From positions 1 to 21,215 of IMG/VR virus record IMGVR_UViG_3300009441_000064: a stretch of DNA of 21,215 bases. One strand, given 5' to 3'. Of the stretch, positions 963-19,208 are shown piece by piece. The notes below the pieces were generated by a model. It was not told where the DNA came from and searched no databases. It worked only from the letters and a program-made list of their open reading frames with translations. The DNA comes from a virus. Each line of letters begins with the position of its first letter. Position 1 is the first letter of the stretch. The translations under genes and the position numbers were made by a program.

Positions 963-992
963 TTGACAATGGCTACCAGCATTTGGTATACT
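963..992 (+). promoter_or_regulatory. Sigma70-like promoter, 6 nt before an ATG
   Basis: TTGACA (963-968), an 18-bp spacer and TATACT (987-992). The 15 bases GCCTTGACAATGGCT (960-974) recur exactly at the promoter near 14752. The ATG of the 32-codon gene begins at 999, where transcription would be expected to start, so the message may be leaderless. Confidence 0.7.
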
Positions 993-998
993 GTATAC

Positions 999-1097
999 AT
1001 GATTGAGAAAACAAAGAAACTTGGACTACTAGACACTGACTTCCTTCAAGGAGTCGCAGTGATGTTACTCCCTGTACTCCTTACGGTGGTATCATAA
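999..1097 (+). CDS. Small hydrophobic protein, 32 aa
   Basis: ATG at 999 to TAA at 1095-1097. The charged N-terminus (MIEKTKKLG) is followed by a hydrophobic stretch, VAVMLLPVLLTVVS, long enough for one short membrane helix. There is no SD; the start codon falls at the predicted +1 of the promoter ending at 992. The frame is also open upstream (to about 816) with another ATG at 972, but that ATG would lie inside the promoter. No family is recognised. Confidence is limited by the short length. Confidence 0.4.
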   Translation: MIEKTKKLGLLDTDFLQGVAVMLLPVLLTVVS

Positions 1098-1117
1098 GAT
1101 GGCATCACTATACATGG

Positions 1118-1360
1118 GTGGACTGGATGATTGATTCTTCTATGGAGAATGGTCTATACGGTGTACACCTAGCGACTGATATCCCTGTCTCTATACCTCT
1201 TACTGATGACGAGTTAACGCTTGCATGTAGTAAGGGTGACATAGACGGCGATTGGAGTATCATGTGTGAGAGTGTGTTGAAGCGTACAGGGTACGTCATC
1301 GAGGGATGTCTCATGATAGAATCAATTGTCATAAAGGGGGTTGTCAAAGACTTCCATTAA
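1118..1360 (+). CDS. Hypothetical protein, 80 aa
   Basis: The frame is open from 1040 to TAA at 1358-1360. The only candidate starts are GTG at 1118, ATG at 1130 and ATG at 1142, none with a good SD. The protein is acidic (LTDDELTLACSKGDIDGDWSIM) and reads like genuine coding sequence. Residues encoded before 1118 (PYGGIIRWHHYTWVDW) also look protein-like, so the true start may be an unusual codon upstream or the gene may be a degraded remnant. A promoter overlaps its last codons. No family is recognised. Confidence 0.5.
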   Translation: MDWMIDSSMENGLYGVHLATDIPVSIPLTDDELTLACSKGDIDGDWSIMCESVLKRTGYVIEGCLMIESIVIKGVVKDFH

Positions 1361-1369
1361 TGGTATAAT
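1341..1369 (+). promoter_or_regulatory. Sigma70-like promoter at the end of the 80-aa gene
   Basis: TTGTCA (1341-1346), a 17-bp spacer and TATAAT (1364-1369), preceded by TGG (extended -10). It overlaps the stop codon of the gene ending at 1360 and would transcribe the 1376-1578 stretch. Confidence 0.6.
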
Positions 1370-1442
1370 AGAGTATAAGAAACGGAAGTTAACGAGTGAG
1401 TTGTACCGTGGATTGCTACTGTAGGGCGAGCATATCGTCTCT

Positions 1443-1553
1443 ATGTTAAGTCACTTGGGGTTGTTACCGAAAGCACGTGTGGTGATGAGAAGCGCCACCT
1501 CTGAGATGCTTGTAGCACGGGCATCTACAGGGGCCTTGACAAGAGCACGCTAA
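1443..1553 (+). CDS. Possible small basic protein, 36 aa
   Basis: ATG at 1443 to TAA at 1551-1553. No SD is visible and the protein (MLSHLGLLPKARVVMRSATS...) resembles no known family. One reason to keep it: its final codons, GCC TTG ACA in frame (-GALTRAR), coincide with the -35 box of the next promoter, exactly as in the better-supported genes ending at 13811 and 14766. It may equally be a chance frame in a leader. Confidence 0.25.
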   Translation: MLSHLGLLPKARVVMRSATSEMLVARASTGALTRAR

Positions 1554-1564
1554 TATGTTATAAT
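1536..1564 (+). promoter_or_regulatory. Consensus sigma70 promoter
   Basis: TTGACA (1536-1541), a 17-bp spacer and TATAAT (1559-1564): a full match to both hexamers at the optimal spacing. An AGGAGA ribosome-binding site and an ATG at 1579 follow. It is the strongest-looking promoter in the window and would use the host polymerase early in infection. Confidence 0.8.
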
Positions 1565-1578
1565 AGGAGAGACAGCAT

Positions 1579-1752
1579 ATGACATGGACTACTGTAGATG
1601 TATACAGTATAGACACGAAGGTGACACACATAGATGGGTCACATGACTTGGTGAAGCGTACCGATAAACCTGTGAGTCTATCAGAGGCGCTAGAAGTCTG
1701 TAAGAGACTCGAACGATACAAACATGTAGTCGAACTACGGAGAGTATCTTAG
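1579..1752 (+). CDS. Hypothetical early protein, 57 aa
   Basis: ATG at 1579 with AGGAGA 8-9 nt upstream, directly behind a perfect sigma70 promoter; TAG at 1750-1752. It starts MTWTTVDVYSIDTKVTH and ends in a charged, probably helical segment (LSEALEVCKRLERYKHVVEL). Promoter, SD and position make this one of the best-supported small genes here despite its length. Such early genes of T4-like phages often target host functions, but no family is recognised and no function is assigned. Confidence 0.65.
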   Translation: MTWTTVDVYSIDTKVTHIDGSHDLVKRTDKPVSLSEALEVCKRLERYKHVVELRRVS

Positions 1753-1875
1753 CAGCCCTTAGAACAGTGCTGTGGGACTCCTAGGGTATGTGAGCAGCAA
1801 CTCAACCCCCTACCCTAATAGCTCTGTGAGTATTATATTAGAGGTCAACGAATATTTTTTTTTGGTAATTTTTTT
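1753..1875 (+). other. Intergenic stretch with inverted repeat and T-runs
   Basis: No gene seen. TAGGGTA (about 1785-1791) and TACCCTA (about 1812-1818) can pair across a long loop. Runs of eight or more Ts lie at about 1854-1863 and 1869-1875, immediately before the next ATG. The stem is not adjacent to the T-runs, so this is not a standard intrinsic terminator. TATTAT/TATATT near 1833-1842 could be a weak -10. Confidence 0.35.
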
Positions 1876-2136
1876 ATGAGTAAATTCAAAATCGTACAAG
1901 GTATGAAATCCGACAAGGATAGGATACTCTTATACAATGGACGTGCAGTAGCATTCGAAGATGTTGCAAAGATGTGTATCTTCTTTATTGCAAACGAGGA
2001 CACCCTATACCCACCCCCTAGATATAAAGGTGGTCAGATGTTTATTGATTACATGACAGAGGTCTTGGAGACAAGACGTGTACCTACAGACAGTAAGTAT
2101 GCAATTAAAAAGAACCATGGAGTCGTAAAGGTATGA
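1876..2136 (+). CDS. Hypothetical protein, 86 aa
   Basis: ATG at 1876 follows a U-rich leader with no SD, so initiation may rely on an unstructured mRNA or ribosomal protein S1. The protein begins MSKFKIVQGMKSDKDRI and has a hydrophobic central part (VAKMCIFFIA) followed by YPPPRYKGG. It looks soluble and slightly basic. It overlaps the next gene by ATGA. No family is recognised. Confidence 0.7.
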   Translation: MSKFKIVQGMKSDKDRILLYNGRAVAFEDVAKMCIFFIANEDTLYPPPRYKGGQMFIDYMTEVLETRRVPTDSKYAIKKNHGVVKV

Positions 2137-2360
2137 GTGCAAAGACACGTAAGATACACAGAGAGACTGCTACCACCGTTGGTACAGGTCTACTCATCAA
2201 CTACCCCACCAATCTATTCCTACTCTATATGTTTCTAGAGGTATTCGAATGGACATCCCCCCTACACATAGGTACTACTATCACTGCAATCATGACAGTC
2301 ATAGCTTATACGAGAGTATTCACGATACGTAGATGGTTCACCAATCATGATAGTGTATGA
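2133..2360 (+). CDS. Small two-helix membrane protein, 75 aa
   Basis: ATG at 2133 overlaps the previous stop as ATGA, implying translational coupling. After a basic N-terminus (MSAKTRKIHRET) come two hydrophobic segments, roughly residues 15-37 and 45-62, ending in TRVFTIRRWF. The layout (basic start, two helices, a closing R-R-W-F) resembles a family of small phage membrane proteins of unknown function; that match is from memory. It probably sits in the inner membrane with both ends in the cytoplasm. Confidence 0.75.
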   Translation: MSAKTRKIHRETATTVGTGLLINYPTNLFLLYMFLEVFEWTSPLHIGTTITAIMTVIAYTRVFTIRRWFTNHDSV

Positions 2361-2371
2361 GGAATAGCATC

Positions 2372-2400
2372 TATACAACTAACACACACTATGGTATAAT
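2372..2400 (+). promoter_or_regulatory. Sigma70-like promoter, 6 nt before an ATG
   Basis: TATACA (2372-2377) serves as a -35, followed by a 17-bp spacer and TATAAT (2395-2400) with a TGG extension. The ATG of the next gene is at 2407, the expected +1. TATACA also fills the -35 position at 13477 and 9629. Confidence 0.6.
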
Positions 2401-2406
2401 AGACTT

Positions 2407-2715
2407 ATGATTACAGTATATGGTTCAATGAAACACACTCAGAGTGGACGTAAACGTAAAACCAATGCATGGAAGACACGTACTAAGACTGCACGTGATT
2501 ATTCTTGGGGTGTTACTCCCGAGAGTCCTAGCTCCTATGTGCGTGAGAGTGTATACTACCCAAGCGTTTCTAATAGTGTACATTGTACAGTTAATGAAAC
2601 ACTAAGTAAAGAAGAGAGGCAACGTATCTCGTCCGAGTATACCATTGCACCGTCTTATAATAAGGGTGCATATCAAGTGATACCACGTTCAGAGGTGAAA
2701 CACATAGGCAGATGA
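2407..2715 (+). CDS. Hypothetical basic protein, 102 aa
   Basis: ATG at 2407 lies 6 nt after the -10 box and has no SD, suggesting a leaderless message. The N-terminal third is very basic (HTQSGRKRKTNAWKTRTKTAR), then Ser/Tyr-rich (PESPSSYVRESVYYPSVSNS). This could suit nucleic-acid binding, but there is no recognisable domain. It overlaps the next small gene by ATGA at 2712-2715. Confidence 0.7.
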   Translation: MITVYGSMKHTQSGRKRKTNAWKTRTKTARDYSWGVTPESPSSYVRESVYYPSVSNSVHCTVNETLSKEERQRISSEYTIAPSYNKGAYQVIPRSEVKHIGR

Positions 2716-2807
2716 TAAGTTCTATACTGTGGAGTTGTTTTATTCTTGCATGGTTCTCATACGGAGCTCATGTGATATACAATTTTGTAAAATATAATAG
2801 GAGATAG
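2712..2807 (+). CDS. Small membrane protein, 31 aa
   Basis: ATG overlaps the previous stop (ATGA 2712-2715); TAG at 2805-2807. The peptide is one hydrophobic, aromatic-rich helix (ISSILWSCFILAWFSYG) ending in a basic tail (VKYNRR). Its last codons include the AGGAGA that serves as SD for the next gene. Overlaps on both sides and the clear single-helix character support a real gene. Confidence 0.6.
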   Translation: MISSILWSCFILAWFSYGAHVIYNFVKYNRR

Positions 2808-2809
2808 TC

Positions 2810-3010
2810 GTGTTTAGTTGGATAGGTAGAAAAATAAGTAGAGAATTCGAGAGATTCTTAGAACGTTCCTTCCAAAAAACCGCAGACCGTCTCAACAAAG
2901 AACATGAAATAGAGTATCAGAGAATGTATGATAGTCTTAAAACAGATTACATCAACGAAATAGGAGCAGACGTACCCAGTAAGGGTACCATAGTCGACAA
3001 AAGAATATGA
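2810..3010 (+). CDS. Hypothetical charged protein, 66 aa
   Basis: The start is GTG at 2810 with AGGAGA 6-7 nt upstream, inside the end of the preceding gene. The protein is strongly charged and probably alpha-helical (REFERFLERSFQKTADRLNK), with an amphipathic N-terminus (MFSWIGRKI) that could lie on a membrane. It overlaps the next gene by ATGA. No family is recognised. Confidence 0.7.
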   Translation: MFSWIGRKISREFERFLERSFQKTADRLNKEHEIEYQRMYDSLKTDYINEIGADVPSKGTIVDKRI

Positions 3011-3174
3011 GATTACTAGAACACAGTTACGGAGATGTAAGAATCTTCTCATCAAGACCCTATGGGTATAAAAGATACCACGTAGAGTGGGCAGACGGAC
3101 GTATTAGTATGTTCTCTTCCATATGGTACTCCCTTGAACAAGTCAAATCAAAGGTGGAGATACAATTAACATGA
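3007..3174 (+). CDS. Hypothetical protein, 55 aa
   Basis: ATG at 3007 overlaps the preceding stop as ATGA, and its own TGA (3172-3174) overlaps the next ATG the same way. The sequence is aromatic and basic (SYGDVRIFSSRPYGYKRYHV) with a short predicted helix at the end (YSLEQVKSKVEIQLT). The unbroken chain of 4-nt overlaps is strong evidence of expression. The function is unknown. Confidence 0.65.
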   Translation: MRLLEHSYGDVRIFSSRPYGYKRYHVEWADGRISMFSSIWYSLEQVKSKVEIQLT

Positions 3175-3386
3175 GTATAATGGATTTATTTCTGTTACCA
3201 TGGACAGTCACGGTGTTTATATTGCAGTATGCATGGTCTTTACTCTTATGGAGTGCTTTTGTTATAGGTTCTCACTATCTTTTGGTCACCTATGGCGGTG
3301 GGTTAACTCTTTGGTCTCGACTTAAAGCATTCAAACCCCTAGGAAAGAACTCTAAAGATATAGACATTGACGAGTACTATAAATAA
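3171..3386 (+). CDS. Small membrane protein, 71 aa
   Basis: ATGA overlap with the preceding gene. Two hydrophobic stretches, about residues 4-20 (LFLLPWTVTVFILQYAW) and 22-42 (LLLWSAFVIGSHYLLVTYGG), may form a helical hairpin. A charged soluble tail ends DIDIDEYYK. The size and two-helix form would fit a holin, but several other small membrane proteins in the window fit as well, so no function is assigned. The last codons contain a TATAAATA late-promoter octamer. Confidence 0.7.
   Translation: MSIMDLFLLPWTVTVFILQYAWSLLLWSAFVIGSHYLLVTYGGGLTLWSRLKAFKPLGKNSKDIDIDEYYK
3378..3385 (+). promoter_or_regulatory. T4-type late promoter octamer
   Basis: TATAAATA, preceded by C, matches the T4 late -10 element recognised by the gp55-type sigma. 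It lies over the last codons of the gene ending at 3386 and 5 nt before the ATG at 3391. Confidence 0.5.
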
Positions 3387-3390
3387 AACC

Positions 3391-3552
3391 ATGAGTACTG
3401 AATTATATTTAATACATCTCGGATTTATTGTTGCAATAGTCTTCTTTACGTTCCGTAGTGGACAACGAAGTGGTCGTTCAGAGATGGTCGCACAGTTAAT
3501 TGAAGACAAATTAGTACAAGCAGAAACATTAATCGAACACTATAAAAAATAA
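3391..3552 (+). CDS. Small single-span membrane protein, 53 aa
   Basis: The ATG at 3391 is preferred to an in-frame ATG at 3367, which would overlap the previous gene. No SD is present; the start falls at the expected +1 of the TATAAATA at 3378-3385. An N-terminal helix (YLIHLGFIVAIVFFTF) is followed by a charged helical tail (RSEMVAQLIEDKLVQAETLI). This is the layout of a bitopic membrane protein with a cytoplasmic coiled tail. No family is recognised. Confidence 0.65.
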   Translation: MSTELYLIHLGFIVAIVFFTFRSGQRSGRSEMVAQLIEDKLVQAETLIEHYKK

Positions 3553-3576
3553 TAGTAAACCCTAGGACATTATATT

Positions 3577-4779
3577 ATGAGAATCATTGGAATTAACTCC
3601 AGTCACGACACTTCACTTTGCATTATGGAAGACGGAGTCGTCAGAGAACTCTTCGAAGAAGAAAGAGAACGTAGAGACAAATACTATTCACCCAAATTAG
3701 ACGAACCCGAACTACACGTAGTTAATTCTAAAGGCCTTGCAGATGCATTGACCAATGAAGACGGTGAACCCTGTGGTGAGTTAGTCTTTGCTTCGTTTGA
3801 CAGACGTGACATGAAGCTTCACATGGATAAAGAATACATTATGGACAATCGTTTGATTGCAGAAGACCTTGCAGTTGCATTAGCCAAATCACAATTAACC
3901 ACCGCACGTATCGAAGAACTCAAAGAAGAGTTTCCTAAACTAGGAATGAATGAAGAGTGGATGGAAGAAATGGATGAAACTATTCATGATGCTATGTGCA
4001 AACAGTTTGACAATATGGATGAGTATCATTACGATACCGAACATCATATGTATCATGCATACAGTGGATACTATCTATCACCCTTCTTTGAACGTGGTGA
4101 GGATGCCATTGCGATTGCATGGGACGGCGGTGGTGCAAAGAGTTACCATGAGACCCACCCCAACTATCAAGAGATAGAATCTATATGGTCTTGCAAGTTT
4201 GCAGATAAAACAATTACACCCCAGTGGAAGAAGATGTCTAATCATCGTACCCTAGGTGACATTGCATCTACTTACTTTCCTAACATGTATTATGATTCTG
4301 CTCATTGTTTAACAGACGAAGAGATTACTATGGATGGTATCGACGTGGTGTTAACTAGCTTCCCTTCTAGCGGTATGAACTTCAGTAACATGTCATATGC
4401 CTTCGGTGCAGATACTCAAGGTAGAGCAGCGGGTAAGGTCATGGGAATGGCATCCTATGGTAGACTCATCGAGTCCCAACCCGATAGACACGACAGACAT
4501 ACCGTTGCACAGATGTGTGAAGAGACATCATTTAATAATGCATGTAACGTAATAAGAAAGGCAATGGAATATAATCCCGATTGCAAGAACCTAGTCCTCA
4601 GTGGTGGGTTCAGTTTAAACTGTACTAATAATTATAAGTACCTACGAGAGTTTCCCGAATTAAATATATTCGTTGACACAGTTCCCCATGATTGTGGTAA
4701 TGCAGTCGGAGCTGCGTACTGGTTATATTGGAACATTGAAGCAGGTAAGCAAGATACATCAACAGGAGATACAGAATGA
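3577..4779 (+). CDS. Carbamoyltransferase, N-terminal (Kae1-like) subunit
   Basis: This 400-aa protein is the N-terminal half of a NodU/CmcH/TobZ-type O-carbamoyltransferase, the part that in known members makes carbamoyl-adenylate from carbamoyl phosphate and ATP. It opens with MRIIGINSSHDTSLCIMEDG, the family's ATPase-like first strand. An HxxxH metal motif is visible in EHHMYHAYSGYY, followed by the glycine motif AIAWDGGGAKS and the nucleotide-binding SGGFSLNC and PHDCGNAVGAA. The gene ends right after this domain; the transferase domain is in the next gene, joined by ATGA (4776-4779). A phage enzyme could carbamoylate a sugar of the host surface or a nucleobase or sugar on phage DNA; the sequence does not say which. 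No good SD precedes the ATG. Confidence 0.85.
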   Translation: MRIIGINSSHDTSLCIMEDGVVRELFEEERERRDKYYSPKLDEPELHVVNSKGLADALTNEDGEPCGELVFASFDRRDMKLHMDKEYIMDNRLIAEDLAVALAKSQLTTARIEELKEEFPKLGMNEEWMEEMDETIHDAMCKQFDNMDEYHYDTEHHMYHAYSGYYLSPFFERGEDAIAIAWDGGGAKSYHETHPNYQEIESIWSCKFADKTITPQWKKMSNHRTLGDIASTYFPNMYYDSAHCLTDEEITMDGIDVVLTSFPSSGMNFSNMSYAFGADTQGRAAGKVMGMASYGRLIESQPDRHDRHTVAQMCEETSFNNACNVIRKAMEYNPDCKNLVLSGGFSLNCTNNYKYLREFPELNIFVDTVPHDCGNAVGAAYWLYWNIEAGKQDTSTGDTE

Positions 4780-5420
4780 TTGTCACGGAAGTAGTAAGAG
4801 ATTTAGATGAAGTCATAAGACTTCTAACCGATGAAGAACAAGTCATTGGTATGTTCCAAGGGCCAAGTGAATGGGGCCCACGTGCATTAGGTAATCGTTC
4901 AATATTATTTGACCCTACCAATTCGAATGCAAAACAAATTGTTAATACCATTAAGAAGAGAGAATATTATAGACCCTTTGCTGGAACTGTATTAAAAGAA
5001 AGAGCATCCGAATATTTTGAAATGCTTCAGTTAGAAGAGTCACCTTACATGTCATTTGCAATTCAATGTAAAGAGAAAGCATACAAAGAGATTCCTTCCA
5101 TCGTTCATGCCGACGGTACATGTAGAATACAAACAGTAACCGAAGAACAAAATAAAAACTATTATAATTTAATTAAAGCATTAGGTGAAAAGAATGGCAC
5201 CCCCATTGTATTTAATACTTCATTTAATTTAGGTGGTGAAGCTTTAGTTGAAACTATCTTCGATGCAATCGATACATGTAATCGTTCTATGATTAACTTC
5301 TTGTATGTACCCGAAGACCAAGAACAACATATCCCTTACGAGTTATTTAAACCTAAGTCAACTGAAGAAGCTTTAAAAAACTCTGCCGATGACCATGGTG
5401 TGTGGGACTCTGAAGTATAA
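4776..5420 (+). CDS. Carbamoyltransferase, C-terminal subunit
   Basis: This 214-aa protein matches the C-terminal transferase domain of the NodU/CmcH/TobZ family. GMFQGPSEWGPRALGNRSIL is the family signature, followed by YYRPFAGTVL, SPYMSFAIQ, HADGTCRIQTV and NGTPIVFNTSFNLGGEALV, all in the expected order. In most relatives both domains are in one chain of roughly 550-600 aa; here the break falls in the linker between domains. Its own SD (AGGAG 4764-4768, 7 nt before the ATG) and the ATGA overlap argue for a working two-subunit enzyme rather than a frameshifted pseudogene. Its end carries a TATAAATA promoter octamer. Confidence 0.85.
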   Translation: MIVTEVVRDLDEVIRLLTDEEQVIGMFQGPSEWGPRALGNRSILFDPTNSNAKQIVNTIKKREYYRPFAGTVLKERASEYFEMLQLEESPYMSFAIQCKEKAYKEIPSIVHADGTCRIQTVTEEQNKNYYNLIKALGEKNGTPIVFNTSFNLGGEALVETIFDAIDTCNRSMINFLYVPEDQEQHIPYELFKPKSTEEALKNSADDHGVWDSEV

Positions 5421-5440
5421 ATACTTCTATGATAGAAGTA
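5412..5440 (+). promoter_or_regulatory. Late promoter octamer with two competing hairpins at the Fe-S carrier start
   Basis: TATAAATA at 5416-5423 lies 5 nt before the ATG at 5429. GAAGTAT (5412-5418) can pair with ATACTTC (5421-5427), and TACTTCT (5422-5428) can pair with AGAAGTA (5434-5440), placing the ATG in a 5-nt loop. The two pairings share bases and exclude each other. A transcript starting near 5429 would contain neither hairpin; a read-through transcript would contain both. Confidence 0.45.
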
Positions 5441-5755
5441 ACAGACATTGCAATAGCAAAACTCATAGAGAAGAAAGTAGACTCAGTTAGAATGGGTGTT
5501 ACTGGTGGCGGTTGCAGTGGTTATGAATATGTCTTCGTGGAAGATGAATTCAAGGACGGAGACTTAGAGTTAGATTACGGTAAGTTTAAATTTTTAATAG
5601 ATACAATGAGTCAACCCTTTTTAAATGGAATGACTTTAGATTATGAACAACAGGGATTGAATGAGACGTTCACGTTTCAGAATCCAAATGAAGAAGCCAG
5701 TTGTGGTTGTGGAGTGAGTATTACATTTAATGAAGACATCGTCAGCAAAAGCTAA
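5429..5755 (+). CDS. A-type Fe-S cluster carrier (IscA/ErpA/HesB family)
   Basis: This 108-aa protein matches the A-type iron-sulfur carrier family in length and in its three cysteines: C29 in GGGCSGYEY and C92/C94 in ASCGCGVSITF, followed by the usual short tail. These proteins hold an Fe-S cluster and hand it to client enzymes in the cytoplasm. Phage copies may keep Fe-S enzymes supplied during infection; a possible client is the radical SAM protein at 11689-12663. There is no SD, and the ATG coincides with the expected start of a late transcript. The end overlaps the next gene by 26 nt. The family call is firm; the client is inferred. Confidence 0.9.
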   Translation: MIEVTDIAIAKLIEKKVDSVRMGVTGGGCSGYEYVFVEDEFKDGDLELDYGKFKFLIDTMSQPFLNGMTLDYEQQGLNETFTFQNPNEEASCGCGVSITFNEDIVSKS

Positions 5756-6113
5756 AGGTCGTAAACTACAACAGTGGTTCCGTGACTTACTCGTAGAGAA
5801 ACTTGACCTAGACCCCGAGGATTCAGAGTCTAGACCCATGGGTTCTCAAGGTGAAGATATTATATTAGGGACAGAGTCTAGAAGATTGTTTCCATATAGC
5901 ATCGAATGTAAAAACCAAGAAGCAGTTAATGTTTGGAATGCATATGCACAAGCAGAAAGTAATTGTGGGAAGTACGAACCGATTGTTTGTATTAAAAGAA
6001 ATAGAAGTAAACCATTAGTGTTGGTGGATGCAGAATACTTTGTTGCATTACATAAGAAACCACTAACTGATTTAGAAGTACAAGCCATAGAGGTGGGATT
6101 AAAGAAACTATGA
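5730..6113 (+). CDS. PD-(D/E)XK / resolvase-like endonuclease
   Basis: This 127-aa protein has the pattern of a small restriction-fold nuclease: a basic N-terminal helix (KAKGRKLQQWFRDLL), then SQGEDIIL with E42/D43, then the core IECKNQ with E59-x-K61, then WNAYAQAESN with a helical Gln as in archaeal Hjc-like Holliday junction resolvases. A final YFVALHK segment is typical of phage members. Likely roles are junction resolution or repair; a homing or host-DNA role cannot be excluded. The ATG at 5730 lies within the end of the Fe-S carrier gene, and its stop overlaps the next ATG (ATGA 6110-6113). Confidence 0.65.
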   Translation: MKTSSAKAKGRKLQQWFRDLLVEKLDLDPEDSESRPMGSQGEDIILGTESRRLFPYSIECKNQEAVNVWNAYAQAESNCGKYEPIVCIKRNRSKPLVLVDAEYFVALHKKPLTDLEVQAIEVGLKKL

Positions 6114-7492
6114 AATCGTTCCAAGAAATGATTCAAGAAGATACAGTCAGTAAGACCGACCCTTATCGCCTCGTAGTTCTCGCTGAGAGACCGAAGAAAC
6201 AATCCAAGAACTCAACCTCAGGCAAGATAGTTAAAGTTGCTGAGAAGATGGGTATGGACGTTTACAACGTGCGTATCAATGGTGCATACTTAGAACGTGA
6301 TGAAGACAGTGGAAGTATTACTATTCACAATGCAGACGATGAGAAAGGATTCGAAGTTGATGCAGATACATTAGTCATGATTCGTGGTGGTGTAACTAGT
6401 AAAGATTCATACCTCGATTTAATCTCACAGATTGAACGCTACGGCATTGCAACGTGCAACCCTAGGGAATGTATCGAAGTTTGTTCAGACAAGTTTAGAA
6501 CGTACCTCAGACTGCAAGAGATAGGTCTTAACCAACCTAAGACAGTATTGATTCCTAACGATGAAAAGGATACTGTAGACAGAGCCCATGAAGCATTAGA
6601 CAATGACTTCCCGATGGTACTTAAAACATTACAGGGTTCCAAGGGTGTTGGTGTTCTATTAATTGAAACAGAACGTTCACTACAATCACAGGTCAGCTTG
6701 ATTTATAAGATTGACCCTTACTGTGATATCCTATTACAAGAATACATCGAGTCAGATTACGATGTACGTGTTGTCATTGTCAACAGAGAAATCGTTGGTG
6801 CAATGAGACGAAACAAAATTACAGATGACTTCAGAAGTAATGTATCCCAAGGTGCAGAGGCTGAAGAAGTTAAGTTAACAGAACTAGAGATGGACGTTTG
6901 CCTAAGAGCTAGCAAAGCCGTGAACGGACAATGGTGTGGTGTCGACTTTATTCCTAGCAAAAACAGAAAAACAGAACCACCATACATTCTAGAAGTAAAT
7001 CATTCGCCAGGCACAGAGGGAATCTCCTCAGTCATTGGTGAAGACATTGTTAAGAAAGTTTTAAAGCTCTACAGAGATAGAGACATGTGGAAGAGGTCAC
7101 CAACAGAATGTGGTGTATTAGAAACCATAGAGATTGAAGGAGTTGAAATGACAGCAAAGATGGATACAGGTAATTCCGTATCGGCTTGTTCCCTTCATGC
7201 AGAAGATATTAAGATAAGTGGTAAGAAAGTATCTTGGACAACAGAGGGTGTTAAGTATAATAAACCCCTAATAAGAATGGTTCAACTATTGAAACCAGCA
7301 GAGGAACGTCCAGTAGTAGAATTAGAATTAAACTTTCTAAACACTATATATGAGCAAGAAGTCAGTTTAGATACTAGAGGGATGATACCCTTTCTTGCAA
7401 ATCGTGATTTAATGCAACGTGCAAACTTAATGATTAATCCTGCTCGTAAGTTTATGATTACGAACAAGAGAGATGAGAAAGACGATAGTTAA
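6110..7492 (+). CDS. RimK-type ATP-grasp ligase fused to a RimB-like aspartic protease domain
   Basis: This 460-aa protein joins two domains. Residues about 18-325 form an ATP-grasp ligase of the RimK (glutamate ligase) type: a pre-ATP-grasp domain, then K172 in FPMVLKTLQGSKGVGV, ILLQEYI (210-211), R220, VDF with D279, and LEVNHSPGTEG with E295/N297. Residues about 334-450 match the retropepsin-like RimB/PF05618 family: AKMDTGNSVSACSLHAEDI (D352-T353-G354) and a closing IPFLANRDLMQRANLMINP. In bacteria RimK adds glutamates to a protein C-terminus (ribosomal protein S6 is the best known target) and RimB trims them. A fusion could both extend and trim a tail. The target is unknown. Translation is coupled to the nuclease gene through ATGA. 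Confidence 0.85.
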   Translation: MKSFQEMIQEDTVSKTDPYRLVVLAERPKKQSKNSTSGKIVKVAEKMGMDVYNVRINGAYLERDEDSGSITIHNADDEKGFEVDADTLVMIRGGVTSKDSYLDLISQIERYGIATCNPRECIEVCSDKFRTYLRLQEIGLNQPKTVLIPNDEKDTVDRAHEALDNDFPMVLKTLQGSKGVGVLLIETERSLQSQVSLIYKIDPYCDILLQEYIESDYDVRVVIVNREIVGAMRRNKITDDFRSNVSQGAEAEEVKLTELEMDVCLRASKAVNGQWCGVDFIPSKNRKTEPPYILEVNHSPGTEGISSVIGEDIVKKVLKLYRDRDMWKRSPTECGVLETIEIEGVEMTAKMDTGNSVSACSLHAEDIKISGKKVSWTTEGVKYNKPLIRMVQLLKPAEERPVVELELNFLNTIYEQEVSLDTRGMIPFLANRDLMQRANLMINPARKFMITNKRDEKDDS

Positions 7493-7505
7493 TTTGTAAA
7501 CAGAC

Positions 7506-7535
7506 TTGACAATGCCCTAGGCTTTATTATATACT
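7506..7535 (+). promoter_or_regulatory. Sigma70-like promoter, 6 nt before an ATG
   Basis: TTGACA (7506-7511), an 18-bp spacer containing GGCTTTATTA, and TATACT (7530-7535). The ATG at 7542 is at the expected +1 and has no SD. It heads the unit 7542-9603, which contains RNase H. Confidence 0.7.
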
Positions 7536-7541
7536 GGCTTT

Positions 7542-8255
7542 ATGATTATGAAAACTGAAACAAAAACAATTAACATCCAAGAACGGATGAGAGAAAAAGC
7601 ACTGGATGCCTTCAGTGATGTAGAAGCCCAAATAGATAAATGGATTGACAATAAGAAGTCAGACTTTTCTATGTACAAATATCTAGTTAGATTACAGTAC
7701 AGTGGAAAGGTAGTTTACTTTATGAAGGGACAACTTACGGATGCAATTGCAGAAGTAAAGAACGAGGAGAAGTGTGACCAGTTAGAGGAAGCTTTTAATT
7801 TCCTAACTGCAACACAGAAAAAGAATTACATTAAATTCTTAGAAGGAATCGAATCCGACATCAAAAGATTTTGTGATGAGTATACTCCAGTCAGAAAAAG
7901 AAAACCATTGACACCAAAGAGAATGGTAAGGAAGCTTCCGTTCCTCGAAGAGTGGGAAGGTTACAAGTCTATAGACAAGGAAGAGATACCACGTGCATTA
8001 GACCTATTCACATACAACACAGCATCCAAGAAGTTTACACACTTCAGTGGTCATCTATCCGTTAAGGGTTCAAGGATTACTGGTTACGACTCATGTAAAG
8101 AAAAGACCTTGACAGATTGGAAGTTGCTTGATAGAATAGTACAAGGTGGTAATATAATTGCTCGTGGATTTATGGATGAGATTCCTAGGTCGAAGTTGAA
8201 AGACGGAAACGACTTGATTACCAAAAATACATTATTATTAAAAGTGATTAAATGA
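7542..8255 (+). CDS. Hypothetical protein upstream of RNase H, 237 aa
   Basis: A charged soluble protein, mainly helical in the first 120 residues, with a basic patch (TPVRKRKPLTPKRMVRKLPF, about 125-144) that may contact nucleic acid. A C-terminal part probably contains beta strands (FTHFSGHLSVKGSRITGYD). Two in-frame ATGs (7542, 7548) are possible; the first sits at the predicted +1 of the promoter and no SD precedes either. It overlaps RNase H by ATGA (8252-8255), suggesting a replication or recombination role, but no family is recognised. Confidence 0.75.
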   Translation: MIMKTETKTINIQERMREKALDAFSDVEAQIDKWIDNKKSDFSMYKYLVRLQYSGKVVYFMKGQLTDAIAEVKNEEKCDQLEEAFNFLTATQKKNYIKFLEGIESDIKRFCDEYTPVRKRKPLTPKRMVRKLPFLEEWEGYKSIDKEEIPRALDLFTYNTASKKFTHFSGHLSVKGSRITGYDSCKEKTLTDWKLLDRIVQGGNIIARGFMDEIPRSKLKDGNDLITKNTLLLKVIK

Positions 8256-9094
8256 TACTTATAGACTTTACACAGACCATCATTGCTGGTCTAATGGCAC
8301 AACTGAAAATGAATGATGGTGAGATATCGGAAGATATGCTCAGACACATGATACTTAACTCAGTTCGTAACTACCAAAAAAGATACTCTGCAGAGTACGG
8401 AGAGATAACTCTTTGCACGGATGCATCGCACCCATGGAGAAAGGACTTCTACAAACAGTACAAGGCAAATCGAAAGAAGTCTAGAGAAGCAGATAACAAA
8501 GATTGGGGATTGATATTCGATACCCTACACAAAGTTAAGATGGAAATCAAAGAGAACTTTCCATACCGTTACATGTACGTAGAGAACTGTGAGGCTGATG
8601 ATATAATCGGTATCCTAACTAAACATGCACCCTTCGGAGAGAAGGTACTAATTGTTAGTGGAGATAAAGACTTTCAGCAATTGCATAAATACAAGTATGT
8701 AACTCAATGGAGTCCTAACTTAAACAAAATGATTAAGTGTGAAGACCCCGATTTATTTTTGAGAGAGCACATCCTTACTGGTGACAAGTCAGACGGAGTT
8801 CCAAACATTCTATCTAACGATAATTGTTTAGACGAGGGTATCAGACAGACACCGTTAAGGAAACCTATCAAAGATAAGTACTTAAGAATTACAATACAGA
8901 GTGACGATAAATATTATCGGAACTATTTGAGAAACCAAACTCTAATTGATTTAGAGTTTATACCAGCTGAGATAGAGAAGAACATCTTAGATGAGTTTGA
9001 AAAAACCGAACCTGTTAGAGGTAAAGTTTTTGATTATCTAAGAACACATCGACTAGACCAGTTGTTAAACCATGTAGAGGATTTTACATTATGA
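8252..9094 (+). CDS. rnh: RNase H / 5'-3' exonuclease (T4 Rnh, FEN-1 family)
   Basis: This 280-aa protein matches the T4 RNase H/FEN nuclease family in length (T4: about 305 aa) and in its acidic metal ligands: D5 (MILIDF), D57 (LCTDASHPWRK), E114/D116/D117 (NCEADDIIG), D138/D140 (SGDKDFQQL) and D178/D181 (TGDKSDGVPNI). It removes RNA primers and a few adjoining deoxynucleotides from lagging-strand fragments, working with gp32 and the clamp. The ATP-type bridge residues K and R lie in FYKQYKANRKK. It overlaps both neighbours by 4 nt. Recognition is firm. Confidence 0.93.
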   Translation: MILIDFTQTIIAGLMAQLKMNDGEISEDMLRHMILNSVRNYQKRYSAEYGEITLCTDASHPWRKDFYKQYKANRKKSREADNKDWGLIFDTLHKVKMEIKENFPYRYMYVENCEADDIIGILTKHAPFGEKVLIVSGDKDFQQLHKYKYVTQWSPNLNKMIKCEDPDLFLREHILTGDKSDGVPNILSNDNCLDEGIRQTPLRKPIKDKYLRITIQSDDKYYRNYLRNQTLIDLEFIPAEIEKNILDEFEKTEPVRGKVFDYLRTHRLDQLLNHVEDFTL

Positions 9095-9603
9095 CAGAGA
9101 AGAAAGGAAGAGGGCGACCAAAGGGAGCTCCAAATAAACCTAAAATGAAACTAGTTACTGAAAGAGTAACATTACAAAACGATGCAGATGCATATGAAAT
9201 ATTATGTCAAGCAAATATTGTTGCAGAGGAAGATGCGAGTCTTGCAGCCCAAGGGTTAAGAGTATTCAATGAAAGGAATGCTTCAATCAAACCAATACTG
9301 CAGTGGATGTTTGACCCAGCGATTAACTCGACGTTACCCGAAGGAAAAACTCCTTACGGTAGTAACAATGCTCCGGCATCTGATTTAACAGAATCCTCAC
9401 TTAGATTTGAACACAAGATGTTTAAATACTTTGTAACGGAACAAGTTCCAGTCAGTAAGCGTGAAGCTCTTTGGATTGGATTGCTTGAAGGTATCCCTAA
9501 AGAGGAAGCTGAATTAATAGACCTCGTGAAGGATGGAGTTTGGGCATTCCCAAATATCACTAGTAAAATAGCGAAAGATGCCTTCCCCGAGATTAACGTT
9601 TAG
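9091..9603 (+). CDS. Conserved-looking phage protein, 170 aa, unknown function
   Basis: ATGA overlap with rnh. The N-terminus is an AT-hook-like basic run, KKGRGRPKGAPNKPKMK, suggesting DNA or RNA binding. The rest looks globular, with LQWMFDPAINSTLPEGKTPY and repeated acidic helices (EGIPKEEAELIDLVKDGV). From memory, similar proteins occur in marine T4-like phages near replication genes, without an assigned function. The GRGRP core is the feature most worth attention. Confidence 0.75.
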   Translation: MTEKKGRGRPKGAPNKPKMKLVTERVTLQNDADAYEILCQANIVAEEDASLAAQGLRVFNERNASIKPILQWMFDPAINSTLPEGKTPYGSNNAPASDLTESSLRFEHKMFKYFVTEQVPVSKREALWIGLLEGIPKEEAELIDLVKDGVWAFPNITSKIAKDAFPEINV

Positions 9604-9628
9604 ATAAATAATTACAGTAGACCGAGAC

Positions 9629-9666
9629 TATACATATTAAAAAAGGAAGTTATAATAGTTAACTTC
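9629..9666 (+). promoter_or_regulatory. Possible promoter overlapping a hairpin
   Basis: TATACA (9629-9634), a 16-bp spacer and TATAAT (9651-9656) resemble the other sigma70-like promoters. The -10 is inside a hairpin of GAAGTTA (9646-9652) and TAACTTC (9660-9666) with a 7-base loop. No T-run follows, so it is not a standard terminator. Together with the late octamer at 9704 the next gene may be expressed both early and late. Confidence 0.4.
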
Positions 9667-9703
9667 GTATATAAACTTTCTAGTCTAGTTCTGCTCCATG
9701 GAG

Positions 9704-9711
9704 TATAAATA
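9704..9711 (+). promoter_or_regulatory. T4-type late promoter octamer
   Basis: TATAAATA lies 4 nt before the ATG at 9716, in a true intergenic gap rather than inside a gene, which makes it the most credible late promoter here. GGAG lies just before it, too far from the ATG for a normal SD. Confidence 0.6.
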
Positions 9712-9715
9712 AATT

Positions 9716-11335
9716 ATGGCAACAAATGAAATGAACGAGACTGCATCGCAGTTCTCAAAAGAAACACCCGAACCAACTGAGCTGGAACGAATCCAGCAAA
9801 GGATAGCAGATTACAAAATCGGGTTTACGGTAAACAGTGCTGGTGTTATCAACGCACTTGTACAATCACATCTTAAAAGTGGTTTGGTCACCCAAGGTGA
9901 ACTTATACCTCTTGATGCAGTAACGAGAGAGTACGCACAAGGTCAAGGTGAGTACAATCAGATAGTTGCCAATGCACAACGTAGAGCAGAAGAACTTATC
10001 GCTGCAGACAACCTTGCTAAACAAACAGCAATGATAGAAGCAAAAAGAGTTCAAGATGACTACACTGCAGAACAAAGAATTCTCAGAAAAGCTGCAGACC
10101 TTAAGGTTGCACAACTAGAAGCAGTTCTTGCTTCACACGGAATCAACATGGACTTAAATGGCGACGGAGTCATTGGAGTTAAACAGGGTGAATTAAACTC
10201 TGAAGGATTCGTGGAAATGTCAGCAGAAGAGATTGGTAAACTTGCTAGACAACATGGTTATGAAATACCTACAGACCCACCAATACAACAAACACCTCTT
10301 GCACCTAGAGTAGAGGGTAAGAAGAGTGGAGCGTTTGGTCTTGCACGTGCAATGAATCCTCAAGAAACTGCACCAGTAGATACTACAGAATATGTACACA
10401 GAATGCCTGTGCCTGAAGAAGTGCTTCCCACTCATCAAAACGTACACCCATCTGGCGTACCTTTAAACATACACCCATCTGGCGTACCTTTAGATACACC
10501 TCAATCACATACAGTGATACCTTCCCCAGTAGAAACACATACAACTGAAACGTTACAACCAGCGGAAGAAGTGTTCGATGCACCAGCAACAGAAACACCA
10601 TTGTTCACTCCAAGTGGAACAACAACAGAATCTTTCTTAGCTGAAGTTGAGAATGTTGCAGAAGTTGTTCAGTCTGAATCTGAAATAATGCAAGATGAGT
10701 TAGAACCCATACCACTTTCAGATAAAGAAGAATTTGATTCACAAGTAGAAGAGGCAAGACAATCATTTAAAGAATGGGACGCCTCAGTAAGTGGAGACGA
10801 GACTAACTTTGAAGTATCAGATGAAGTTCAACCATTAGGAACTCGAAGTGAAATGCCCGAGTTTCAAGTACAAGAAGAAGATGACAGAACTGAATCGTCA
10901 CTTGCAAAACCAGTAATCACTGGTGGTAACTTTACACCAAGAGCAGAAACACTTTCAACAGGTGGTACAACAACAGCACCAGTTGATAAAGTAATTCCTA
11001 CTTATGATTCTGAAGAAGAACTACTGGCTGCAGCTCAAGCAAGAATTGATGCACAGACAGATATGGAAGAAGAAGAAGTATTCGACGAGATTACTATTCC
11101 TTCAAGTGCAGAATTAGATTCGATGACTAAAAATCAAATCAAGAAATCTGCAGATGGTCTTAACTTTATTGTCACAACTAAAGATAGTAAAGCAGACATG
11201 ATTGAATCATTTCAAGAACAGACTGATGAGCTAATCCAATCATTACAAGACGATGGTTCATTTGTTTCAGCAGTAGATAGTGAAGAGAGTACCGACAATG
11301 ACGATGATACTGTGCGAGACGGTGGATACTTCTAA
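9716..11335 (+). CDS. Long acidic, modular protein, 539 aa, unknown function
   Basis: Residues 20-140 are helical and partly coiled-coil (IVANAQRRAEELIAADNLAK), containing GFTVNSAGVINALVQSHLKSG. A calcium-loop-like MDLNGDGVIGVKQG (145-158) follows, with D146, N148 and D150 but Gln where the usual twelfth-position acid would be. Then come a Pro/Thr-rich stretch with a tandem 9-residue unit (HPSGVPL twice), a long Glu/Asp-rich region, and a C-terminal helical module (ELDSMTKNQIKKSADGL) like SAP/HeH nucleic-acid-binding helices. A late promoter is consistent with a virion or assembly role, but no homolog is recognised. The next gene overlaps its end. Confidence 0.75.
   Translation: MATNEMNETASQFSKETPEPTELERIQQRIADYKIGFTVNSAGVINALVQSHLKSGLVTQGELIPLDAVTREYAQGQGEYNQIVANAQRRAEELIAADNLAKQTAMIEAKRVQDDYTAEQRILRKAADLKVAQLEAVLASHGINMDLNGDGVIGVKQGELNSEGFVEMSAEEIGKLARQHGYEIPTDPPIQQTPLAPRVEGKKSGAFGLARAMNPQETAPVDTTEYVHRMPVPEEVLPTHQNVHPSGVPLNIHPSGVPLDTPQSHTVIPSPVETHTTETLQPAEEVFDAPATETPLFTPSGTTTESFLAEVENVAEVVQSESEIMQDELEPIPLSDKEEFDSQVEEARQSFKEWDASVSGDETNFEVSDEVQPLGTRSEMPEFQVQEEDDRTESSLAKPVITGGNFTPRAETLSTGGTTTAPVDKVIPTYDSEEELLAAAQARIDAQTDMEEEEVFDEITIPSSAELDSMTKNQIKKSADGLNFIVTTKDSKADMIESFQEQTDELIQSLQDDGSFVSAVDSEESTDNDDDTVRDGGYF
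10443..10492 (+). repeat. 27-bp tandem repeat inside the 539-aa gene
   Basis: Two copies start at 10443 and 10470. The first 23 bases of each unit are identical (begins TACACCCATCTGGCG, ends GTACCTTTA). They encode IHPSGVPL-type 9-residue units and keep the frame. Confidence 0.9.
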
Positions 11336-11744
11336 GGATTCAGAAGTACTACCATTAGACCTTAACCAAATAAGTCCAAGATACGAAGAACGTTTTTCTC
11401 AAATAGAGGATGACGTTTTTCGGTTTAACTTCCCCCTAGAATATACAATCCGCTTAGGCGTTCAATACGATACACCTCACATCTTTCTTTATAAAGAAGA
11501 TGATGAGTTAGTGTTCTCTAATCACGATTTAGAGAAAGACGGATTACTAATCAGACCATATCTTTATAATAGACATGGTGACCCAAAGAGTTGTATGATA
11601 AACGAAAAAGAGTCAGCACAATTCTATGTCATTCCCCGATACTTTGCAGAAGGATTTAATGTAGGTGATACTATCCAGTTTTCTTACCATGAACAACTTT
11701 TGGATGAACAAGAAAGACACATTAGGTGTAGACGTGTCACGTAA
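11298..11744 (+). CDS. Hypothetical protein, 148 aa
   Basis: The frame is open before 11298, with a possible GTG at 11280. ATG 11298 is chosen because a GAGAG lies 8 nt upstream; ATG 11304 is also possible. It overlaps the preceding gene by about 38 nt. The protein looks globular and beta-rich (DDVFRFNFPLEYTIRLGVQY, HIFLYKEDDELVFSNHDLEK) and ends RHIRCRRVT. No domain is recognised. The long overlaps at both ends suggest co-translation with its neighbours. Confidence 0.65.
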   Translation: MTMILCETVDTSKDSEVLPLDLNQISPRYEERFSQIEDDVFRFNFPLEYTIRLGVQYDTPHIFLYKEDDELVFSNHDLEKDGLLIRPYLYNRHGDPKSCMINEKESAQFYVIPRYFAEGFNVGDTIQFSYHEQLLDEQERHIRCRRVT

Positions 11745-12663
11745 CATTCCAGTCACGGCAGTTGACCAACACGACTTCTTAGAACACCGTAGAAAACAGG
11801 AAGCTCTACACTGGGGCAGACAAGACATGTCAGAACTGAACGAACTCAGTTCTATCCTTACAGTCGAAGTTAACACTACAGAGTTATGCAACAGGACGTG
11901 TTCGTTTTGTCCAAGAGCAAATCCCGAAGTGTTTCCAAATAGAAACTTACACATGACCCCCAAGGGTGCAGAACTTATTGGAAAGGAATTACATTCAAAT
12001 GGATTTAGAGGTAAGATATCTTTAAGCGGTTACGGAGAGAATCTACTTAACCCAAGATTTAAAGAAATTGTACATACATTCAGAAGAACAGTTCCTTATG
12101 CAACATTAGAATGTAATACAAACGGTGATAAACTAACAAGGGAATATGCAGAAGAGTTATTTGAGTTTAGTGGATTAGATTTACTTTACATTAATCTATA
12201 TGATGGCATCGAACAGATGGAACACTTCGAGAAAGTTATGAAGACCATCCCCGAAACCAAATATAAGTATCGTATGCATTGGGGAGACTTTGAGAACCAT
12301 GGTCTCATTCTAAACAACCGTAGCGGAGTTATGGATTGGGTTGGAGTAGAAGACAGTACGATAGAAGCACTCCAAGGTAAACCATGTCACTACCCATTCT
12401 ATAAGATGTTTGTTGATTGGAACGGAGACGTGCTATTCTGTTCAAACGATTGGGGTAGAGAACATGTCGTAGGTAACTTAATGCATACTTCATTACACGA
12501 TGTGTGGTTTAGTAAACCTATGAATAAGATTAGAAAGAAATTGATGAAGGGTGACAGAAGTATGTCCCCTTGTAACAAGTGTAGTGTAGATGGAAGTCTA
12601 TTCGGCAAACAATCGTTTGACATTGTCAAGGAATATTATGAGAGTAGCAATAACAGGAAGTAG
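11689..12663 (+). CDS. Radical SAM protein with SPASM-like C-terminus
   Basis: CNRTCSFC (about residues 67-74) is the CxxxCxxC [4Fe-4S] motif of radical SAM enzymes, preceded by the usual strand (ILTVEVNTTEL) and followed by ISLSGYGENLLNP, which resembles the family's glycine motif. The C-terminal part has cysteines in GKPCHYPF, VLFCSNDWG and SPCNKCSVDG, as in SPASM/twitch domains that bind extra clusters. Such enzymes modify peptides, sugars or tRNA; the substrate is unknown. The start is uncertain: ATG 11689 is used; ATG 11704 or GTG 11665 (AGAAGGA 10 nt upstream) are alternatives. The SDR-like gene that follows overlaps it by 26 nt, so the two may share a pathway. Confidence 0.85.
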   Translation: MNNFWMNKKDTLGVDVSRNIPVTAVDQHDFLEHRRKQEALHWGRQDMSELNELSSILTVEVNTTELCNRTCSFCPRANPEVFPNRNLHMTPKGAELIGKELHSNGFRGKISLSGYGENLLNPRFKEIVHTFRRTVPYATLECNTNGDKLTREYAEELFEFSGLDLLYINLYDGIEQMEHFEKVMKTIPETKYKYRMHWGDFENHGLILNNRSGVMDWVGVEDSTIEALQGKPCHYPFYKMFVDWNGDVLFCSNDWGREHVVGNLMHTSLHDVWFSKPMNKIRKKLMKGDRSMSPCNKCSVDGSLFGKQSFDIVKEYYESSNNRK

Positions 12664-13216
12664 TGGTTTAGCAAAAGTCATAGGTGACATGATTGCAAAG
12701 ACTGCTTATATCGGAACGATTCATATCGTTGGACATCACCGCGTTGAAGACATCTTAGATTCTGATTGGGTGTGGAAAGAGAACGATGTCTTTATCAATT
12801 GTGCTCACGTAGAGTTCGAACAATGCAAACTGTTAATGGAAGCTTTCGAAGCTTGGAAAGACGACGAGACTAAAACTATCATCAACATTTCATCCAGAGC
12901 AGCTCAACCAAACATCTCAAAGGGTTACATGTATGCAGCTCAGAAAGCTGCGTTGAATCATTTGGCAAGTAACCTAACATGGAACTCAGATAAGAAATGT
13001 AGAATCACTACAATGAATCTAGGGTTAATGAACCATGACACCTTACCCAGTATTTCCCATAACGAGGTCGCATCATGGATATACAGACATTGTACTGGAA
13101 GCAAACATATCGACGTACCCGAGATAACCTTGCAAAACGCTGCAAACTACCAAGACGTGCAATCAGATAAAGATACATTAAGAACTCTTGAATTTAATAG
13201 GAGTATATTTCCATAA
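12638..13216 (+). CDS. SDR-family NAD(P)-dependent oxidoreductase
   Basis: This 192-aa protein begins MRVAITGSSGLAKVIG, a Rossmann dinucleotide-binding turn. It continues with FINCAHVEF (N54, in the place of the NNAG motif), IINISSRAAQ (S85/S86) and Y99-x-x-x-K103 in YMYAAQKAAL: the Ser-Tyr-Lys core of short-chain dehydrogenases. It is shorter than the typical 250 aa. ATG 12638 is chosen because AAGGA lies 5 nt upstream. It overlaps the radical SAM gene by 26 nt. The substrate could be a sugar nucleotide or a small ketone; this is not determinable. Confidence 0.8.
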   Translation: MRVAITGSSGLAKVIGDMIAKTAYIGTIHIVGHHRVEDILDSDWVWKENDVFINCAHVEFEQCKLLMEAFEAWKDDETKTIINISSRAAQPNISKGYMYAAQKAALNHLASNLTWNSDKKCRITTMNLGLMNHDTLPSISHNEVASWIYRHCTGSKHIDVPEITLQNAANYQDVQSDKDTLRTLEFNRSIFP

Positions 13217-13219
13217 ATA
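13212..13219 (+). promoter_or_regulatory. Near-match to the late promoter octamer
   Basis: CATAAATA differs from TATAAATA by one base and lies 5 nt before the ATG at 13225, the same placement as the three exact octamers. It overlaps the stop of the SDR gene. Confidence 0.3.
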
Positions 13220-13224
13220 CTAAT

Positions 13225-13470
13225 ATGACAGAATATAACGATTTCGGATTTACCGCTATGGATGCAGATGAACTTGCAGCCATTGACACTAAGATTATTG
13301 AGAAGACTACTACTGCAACGGAAGTAATCAAGAAGCTCGATGATTTCGTAAGACCCCTACTTGAGAATCTTGCAAAGGATTCAGACAAGGACTATATCTA
13401 TTGGCCGAATAGAGTAGACATCATAAACACCAAGTTAAAAGAATTGGACGATATCCAAAAAAACCTATAA
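13225..13470 (+). CDS. Small acidic helical protein, 81 aa
   Basis: The N-terminus MTEYNDFGFTAMDADELA is followed by two probable helices (IIEKTTTATEVIKKLDDFV and IINTKLKELDDIQKNL). From memory, short proteins starting with a DFGFTA-like motif are common in T4-like marine phages, with no known function. AGGAG lies about 21 nt before the ATG, too far for a normal SD; the octamer at 13212 could give a leaderless message. Confidence 0.75.
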   Translation: MTEYNDFGFTAMDADELAAIDTKIIEKTTTATEVIKKLDDFVRPLLENLAKDSDKDYIYWPNRVDIINTKLKELDDIQKNL

Positions 13471-18971: not shown

Positions 18972-19208
18972 GTGATAAGTAAAAAAGAGTTTACTGAACA
19001 AGTCGAGAAGTTATTGATTGGTGGTAAGACCGATGTTATGGGAGCAATCATAAAAGTTTGTGAGAATAACAAGGTTGAACCCGAATCAGCAAAGAGGTTA
19101 ATATCCCAACCTCTCAAAGAAAAGCTAGAAGCAGAAGCAACTAGTTTGAAAATGATAAACAGGGGTTCATCAGCACAAGGAACTATTACTAGTTTCTTTA
19201 ACAAGTAG
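18972..19208 (+). CDS. 33: Late-transcription coactivator, gp33-like
   Basis: A GTG start with GGAG 7 nt upstream gives a 78-aa, charged, helical protein: EFTEQVEKLLIGGKTDVMGA, IIKVCENNKVEPESAKRLIS, then PLKEKLEAEATSLKMINRG. This pattern matches marine T4-like gp33 proteins as remembered, and gene order 33-59-32 supports it. In T4, gp33 links RNA polymerase (beta flap) to the gp45 sliding clamp and activates late promoters. The C-terminus QGTITSFFNK is a textbook clamp-binding motif (Q-x-x-I-x-x-F-F), fitting that role. T4 gp33 is longer (about 112 aa). The TATAAATA octamers here would be its target promoters. Confidence 0.8.
   Translation: MISKKEFTEQVEKLLIGGKTDVMGAIIKVCENNKVEPESAKRLISQPLKEKLEAEATSLKMINRGSSAQGTITSFFNK

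Follow-up and report, generated by a model that had tools for sequence, protein, structure and literature searches.

Introduction

Late transcription in bacteriophage T4, which involves gp55, gp33 and gp45 and starts from TATAAATA promoters, is a textbook system whose messages carry leaders with a Shine–Dalgarno (SD) sequence. Leaderless mRNAs occur in mycobacteria, and phage cases include lambda cI and P2 V; to our knowledge, the known phage examples are single genes. Here, we analyse the window, a 21,215-base virus record from IMG/VR (IMGVR_UViG_3300009441_000064) that is a fragment of a T4-like phage genome. An earlier note on this DNA had listed seven ATG codons closely preceded by either a sigma70-type −10 box or a T4-type late octamer, and had proposed that both promoter types place the transcription start (+1) on the A of the ATG.

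The late promoters considered here share with those of T4 the heptamer, homologues of gp55 and gp33 and the assumed −13 to −6 geometry; in the marine phages C is also common at −12, as has been reported for phage Aeh1. With known leaderless mRNAs they have in common a predicted 5′-terminal AUG, the lack of an SD sequence and a strong preference for AUG over GUG and UUG. They differ in that the leaderless class is predicted to be systematic, to stand under a phage-specific sigma factor and to belong to lytic T4-like phages. According to the AR9 paper, phage transcripts are often leaderless. The pelagimyophages and the methylophage Melnitz are related phages that likewise encode bS21, gp55 and gp33. 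The pelagimyophage survey states that satisfactory late promoter prediction was not achieved (PMC7029224), and the available sections of the Melnitz paper give 15 late promoters and make no mention of leaderless messages. A suggested role of phage bS21 is to give phage messages an advantage late in the infection cycle (PMC9723584); the accessible sections of that work concern Bacteroidetes phages and name no message class, whereas here SD-less late messages co-occur with bS21. A literature search, with subscription papers such as the Syn9 transcriptome outside its scope, found no report of leaderless late transcription in T4-like phages.

We report that the promoter class is real and conserved, which suggests that many messages in marine relatives of T4 lack a ribosome-binding leader. 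The T4-type promoter appears to have been re-registered onto the AUG across dozens of gene families. If this is true, lytic phages of marine heterotrophs would have a dedicated sigma factor that systematically drives a class of leaderless genes; the poor late-promoter prediction in pelagimyophages may then be explained by promoters hidden in stop/start junctions, and a role for phage bS21 would become testable. The rule of a 5 nt spacing also provides a start-site guide for annotating these genomes.

Results and discussion

The late box often lies exactly 5 nt before ATG

Throughout, the gap is the number of bases between a box and the start codon. In an unbiased test, every 7-mer was counted at every gap from 0 to 20 before each ATG opening at least 40 codons. 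In five related records, G1–G5 (those behind loci L022, L047, L015, L055 and L007; G4 lacks its last 692 bases and G5 is a 66-kb fragment), the most enriched pair was ATAAATA at gap 5, with 44 of 215 occurrences against 1.10 expected. SD words ranked after it (AGGAGAA at gap 4, 29/140), and CTAAATA at gap 5 and GTATAAT at gap 6 gave 15/113 and 14/163, respectively. The same pair came first again in Mosig, HTVC008M and Melnitz taken together (19/143, expected 0.67); three cyanophages gave 3/144 (expected 0.64). T4 has no ATAAATA at gap 5 (0/65), no open reading frame (ORF)-opening ATG at any gap from 0 to 11 behind this heptamer (N = 65) and 1/96 for [AC]TAAATA at gap 5, in agreement with the earlier remark that T4 is not typically leaderless, whereas in the marine phages gap 5 is the commonest. 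The one-letter variants GTAAATA, TTAAATA, ATAAATT, ATAAACA and ATAAGTA show no peak at gap 5.

Because the genomes are kin, protein families were counted as well. Among the marine heterotroph phages (G1–G5, the window, Mosig, HTVC008M and Melnitz), 41 gene families have the box at gap 5, compared with at most nine at any other gap from 0 to 12 and with two for the control [GT]TAAATA at gap 5; the cyanophages and T4 have four families at gap 5 and at most one at other gaps. The families include the gp2 DNA end protector (in seven genomes of both lineages), the gp25 wedge, the gp20 portal and a tail-fibre assembly-like protein. By raw counts, regardless of overall start-codon use, gap 5 is followed by ATG at 84 sites (one G2 gene enters twice, with two heptamers and two in-frame ATGs) and by GTG or TTG at three. 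A further 75 loci contain 130 gap-5 sites, no other gap from 0 to 11 exceeding 11, and 64 of them have at least one. Over whole records, ATAAATA-N5-ATG occurs nine times in HTVC008M, eight in Mosig and four in Melnitz; the counts are two each in T4, RB49, S-PM2 and P-SSM4, three in P-SSM2, one in Syn9 and none in KVP40, Cr30 or phiM12. For the class taken together, chance can be dismissed, although the kinship of the genomes inflates the Poisson values. A DNA search of GenBank phages with one promoter–start junction returned no matches, and a portal-protein scan for further long contigs gave mostly short ones, which were not used.

Promoter identity and the predicted position of +1

Late boxes like NATAAATA and TATAAATA are present in these genomes and precede virion genes (portal, sheath, baseplate and end protector). 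The same heptamer also stands 12–40 nt upstream of leadered late genes in the same genomes, among them tail sheath, baseplate wedge and head–tail adaptor, and this sharing argues for a promoter rather than a translation signal. An A-rich stretch at −19 to −17 is common to both groups, and A and C are used at −12 with frequencies of 0.69 and 0.31 in leadered and 0.79 and 0.21 in leaderless promoters. What separates them is the SD sequence: a 4-mer of it precedes 10 of the 84 gap-5 starts versus 99 of the 152 leadered late genes. The genomes thus use two start modes, the leaderless one and late promoters, many in number, 12–40 nt upstream with an SD sequence. gp55 was found in G1–G4, with no match in the 66-kb fragment G5, and gp33 in G1–G5 and the window.

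Pyrimidine–purine is the usual transcription initiator. In the leaderless class, the ATG follows a pyrimidine (T or C) in 92% of cases, versus 50% of 775 SD-led starts. The T4 late octamer spans −13 to −6 (PMC1524935), and with this rule the base at the predicted +1 of leadered late promoters is a purine in 82%. The coding-sequence starts annotated by the depositors coincide with the predicted +1 at 12 of 12 sites in HTVC008M and 3 of 3 in Melnitz. In HTVC008M, the predicted leaderless AUGs are at 6280, 7562, 11972, 18943, 19456, 31132, 49760, 75559, 75830 and 142360, and on the minus strand at 16007 and 18916.

The seven sites of the window and their relatives

All seven boxes and ATGs were confirmed where the earlier note had placed them (Table 1), including octamer gaps of 5, 5, 4 and 5, and its observation of no well-placed SD sequence also stands: six sites have no SD 4-mer between −18 and −4, and 9716 has a badly placed GGAG.

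Table 1. Promoter-like elements and genes of the window (1-based positions; +1, transcription start).
Feature	Position	Strand	Remarks
sigma70-type promoter TTGACA-N18-TATACT, predicted +1 at 999	963..992	+	TTGACA 963-968, TATACT 987-992, gap 6
Conserved 32-aa peptide, predicted leaderless	999..1097	+	same family and same promoter in 11 relatives
−10-like TATAAT, 6 nt before ATG 2407	2395..2400	+	no support as a leaderless promoter shared by relatives
T4-type late promoter octamer TATAAATA, predicted +1 at 3391	3378..3385	+	gap 5
53-aa protein, predicted leaderless	3391..3552	+	25 distinct orthologous upstreams
T4-type late promoter octamer TATAAATA, predicted +1 at 5429	5416..5423	+	gap 5
108-aa A-type carrier-like protein of Fe-S cluster biosynthesis, predicted to be leaderless	5429..5755	+	Pfam PF01521, E 1.3e-14
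sigma70-type promoter TTGACA-N18-TATACT, predicted +1 at 7542	7506..7535	+	TTGACA 7506-7511, TATACT 7530-7535, gap 6
237-aa protein, function unknown; early gene predicted to be leaderless	7542..8255	+	PHROG 11903
Octamer TATAAATA, 4 nt before ATG 9716	9704..9711	+	judged outside the class
T4-type late promoter octamer CATAAATA, predicted +1 at 13225	13212..13219	+	gap 5
Conserved 81-aa protein, function unknown; late gene predicted to be leaderless	13225..13470	+	orthologues in most relatives
gp33-like late-transcription coactivator, GTG start	18972..19208	+	tblastn HTVC008M gp33, E 1.7e-5, match at 18975-19172

Conservation was counted over distinct orthologous upstreams from the 75 IMG/VR loci and G1–G5. 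The sites at 13225, 5429 and 7542 are well conserved, those at 3391 and 999 moderately, and those at 2407 and 9716 are not. At 13225, [AC]TAAATA-N5-ATG is retained in 37 of 44 upstreams; at 5429 the late promoter is at gap 5 in 22 of 31 and at gap 4 or 6 in four more; at 3391 it is at gap 5 in 14 of 25. The region upstream of the late promoters (−45 to −19) has a mean identity to the window of just 0.25–0.35, and hence motif and spacing persist while their surroundings change. At 7542, 21 of 42 upstreams have the −10 box 6 or 7 nt before the ATG. A protein-first search at 999 found the promoter in 5 of 11 upstreams, and a promoter-first search recovered 11 relatives in which this promoter precedes a conserved peptide of 32–33 aa (nine at gap 6 and two at gap 8). 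This peptide family, M(I/M)..GLLDxDF..., has its own early-type promoter, and annotation easily misses such peptides.

Thus, the spacing that relatives were expected to share is conserved at five of the seven sites. By geometry, both promoter classes tend to place the predicted +1 on the A of the ATG, and geometry together with conserved spacing partly supports leaderless messages from both, as one of the two start modes in these genomes; the proposal fails at 9716 and 2407. Among relatives of 9716, the octamer is at gap 5 in 1/34 and at gap 4 in 1/34, and the site was rejected as a class member. So was 2407, for which a rule demanding a TTGA −35 gave 0/12 relatives; one, L006, retains TATAAT at gap 6.

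The 539-aa gene starting at 9716 is preceded by a block of about 90 nt (window 9635–9712) that is conserved in relatives and contains an arm pair of the GGAAGT/ACTTCC type and a CTCCATGGAG palindrome. Relatives mostly lack the octamer and retain the palindrome upstream as CTCCATGGAG or CTCAGCTGAG; CTCCATGGAG reads CTCAGCTGAG in L027 and partly in L045. The block could be a regulatory RNA or a DNA site. Consensus folding of this leader gave no structure on that alignment, and a single-strand fold of the window sequence was no better than shuffles.

The sigma70-type class

For this class, we searched for TTGAC-N16..19-TAT[AG][ACT]T followed by an ATG of at least 30 codons. In G1–G5 and the window, 19 of the 89 cases have their ATG at gap 6 and five have it at gap 7, and wrong −35/−10 spacings give none at gap 6 (25 and 23 cases). 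Elsewhere, gap 6 was found in 0/60 cases in three cyanophages and in 3/70 in Mosig, HTVC008M and Melnitz. The 16–19 nt spacing holds at 999 and 7542 (spacer 18), and 2407 has no TTGACA-like −35 ahead of its TATAAT. A sigma70 class does exist, though with fewer members and a less exact placement than the late one.

A model for leaderless late messages and its alternatives

The late sites are very probably gp55-type promoters at which RNA starts on the A of the AUG to give leaderless late mRNAs. Motif, exact spacing, conservation, SD absence, initiator signature and the presence of gp55 and gp33 in relatives are computed; the actual 5′ ends, from promoter geometry, and the mode of translation are what we infer. 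The gp55-type promoters would be set so that transcription begins on this A, and a smaller host sigma70-type set would be placed likewise for some, presumably early, genes. Lodging the promoter where one gene stops and the next starts, in many cases with the TAA of the upstream gene falling within the TATA box, would save both leader and SD sequence. On the short transcript, ribosomes would begin at the 5′-terminal AUG by leaderless (70S-type) initiation; on polycistronic RNA from read-through, they would use this AUG by coupling or reinitiation, as usually no more than 20 nt separate it from the upstream stop.

Such crowding might itself be the explanation: promoters squeezed into junctions, with a meaningless distance to the ATG, translation mainly from read-through RNA by coupling, and short transcripts as a by-product. 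The upstream stop lies a median of 15 nt away at leaderless versus 36 nt at leadered sites, and is within 20 nt of the ATG at 51/83 leaderless sites. It falls inside the heptamer at 31/84, as well as at three window sites: stop codon 3384–3386 of ORF 3171–3386 overlaps octamer 3378–3385, ORF 4776–5420 ends inside octamer 5416–5423, and octamer 13212–13219 contains the TAA (13214–13216) of ORF 12590–13216. However, pure compaction would fill gaps 3–11 evenly, not with 41 families at gap 5 and at most nine at others; moreover, the spacing before 13225 persists (37/44) despite a changed upstream (identity 0.25), and 32/83 sites have more than 20 nt of room. We therefore consider compaction by itself unlikely. 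Tight junctions do make leaderless placement pay, yet the rarity of gaps 6–10 is left over; having no leader at all appears to be what is allowed, with leaders only a few bases long being disfavoured. A very short leader of 1–3 nt, with +1 slightly upstream in these phages, is still less probable: start-site choice is flexible in bacteria and the relatives of 7542 use −10 gaps of 6 and 7, but the purine at the predicted +1 of leadered promoters and the pyrimidine at −1 of leaderless ones speak against it. It is highly improbable that heptamer-N5-ATG is an AU-rich translation initiation signal or an RNA processing site and no promoter. Although the sites are A/T-rich and lack an SD sequence, the heptamer also stands 12–40 nt before SD-led late genes, both in these genomes and in T4, the peak is lost on one-letter changes, and sigma70-type promoters show a parallel layout.

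Several observations weigh against transcription starting on the A of the AUG as a general rule. +1 is placed by promoter geometry, and a shift of 1–2 nt is possible. The genomes are related, such that site counts are not independent, and Melnitz by itself is weak (3/60 at gap 5 and two at gap 2). The marine set has seven families at gap 8 and nine at gap 11, indicating some short leaders; the 14.7-kb locus L265 has no gap-5 site among eight heptamers; and two of the seven window sites (9716 and 2407) fail conservation.

Co-occurrence with phage bS21

bS21 (PF01165) is encoded by each of 16 such records (13 from the window clade plus Mosig, HTVC008M and Melnitz) and by none of nine others (T4, Syn9, S-PM2, P-SSM4, P-SSM2, KVP40, Cr30, phiM12 and RB49). 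For eight of the 16, gap-5 sites were counted across complete or almost complete records; the other eight are represented by one locus of 11–21 kb each, all with at least one gap-5 site. No bS21 was found in the window, which is a fragment. The clade's bS21 is 36% identical to that of HTVC008M. In a FastTree tree of four proteins (gp20, gp23, gp18 and gp17), the cyanophages lie between the window clade and the pelagiphage/methylophage group, so that bS21 and the leaderless class are not distributed as one clade on a T4 root; T4 joins the window clade on a long branch that makes the root uncertain. The co-occurrence is correlative, and few independent events lie behind it.

In Bacteroidia, bS21 together with bS18 and bS6 hides the anti-SD sequence (PMC9976891); elsewhere, loss of bS21 disturbs initiation (PMC9723584). 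An effect of phage bS21 could thus go either way. Tentatively, and with more doubt than confidence, leaderless late promoters and phage bS21, a protein located at the anti-SD platform, might form a matched pair that retunes host ribosomes toward these messages late in infection. As the pair occurs in two lineages split by cyanophages, which lack both, it would have been gained twice or lost together once.

A host could not be derived from bS21, as the closest contig match is itself a phage, binned with a Sphingobacteriales metagenome-assembled genome (L265). This 121-kb contig belongs to a phage of the window clade, sharing 74% DNA identity with G3 across 2.4 kb, and was probably misbinned. 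The 4-Mb bin holding L265 has 62 gap-5 motif matches, 7 of them on contig C79; judging by how the motifs look, C79 is probably the L265 phage contig. In G2, the bS21 gene (near 68680–68829) has TATAAT 6 nt before its ATG, a possible leaderless start; the other records compared do not.

Other genes of the window

Rfam and tRNA scans of the window gave no matches, and the 81-aa protein starting at 13225 has no PHROG or Pfam match. The RNase H-like exonuclease of the window is PHROG 107, with its best GenBank relatives in Methylophilales phage Melnitz and marine cyanophages (42–46% identity). PHROG and Pfam matches also identify RimK-like ATP-grasp, Fe-S carrier-like and radical SAM proteins. In bacteria, RimK modifies ribosomal protein S6. 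RimK (PF08443) was considered as a partner of the leaderless trait and rejected: it occurs in only 9 of 25 other records, and G1, G2 and HTVC008M lack it yet have the leaderless class. In the window, the RimK-like ATP-grasp domain is followed within 6110–7492 by a zinc-protease-like (PF05618) C-terminal part. At 3577–5420, two adjoining ORFs correspond to the front and back of one PHROG, a Nol-like carbamoyltransferase, and represent either a split gene or a sequencing frameshift.

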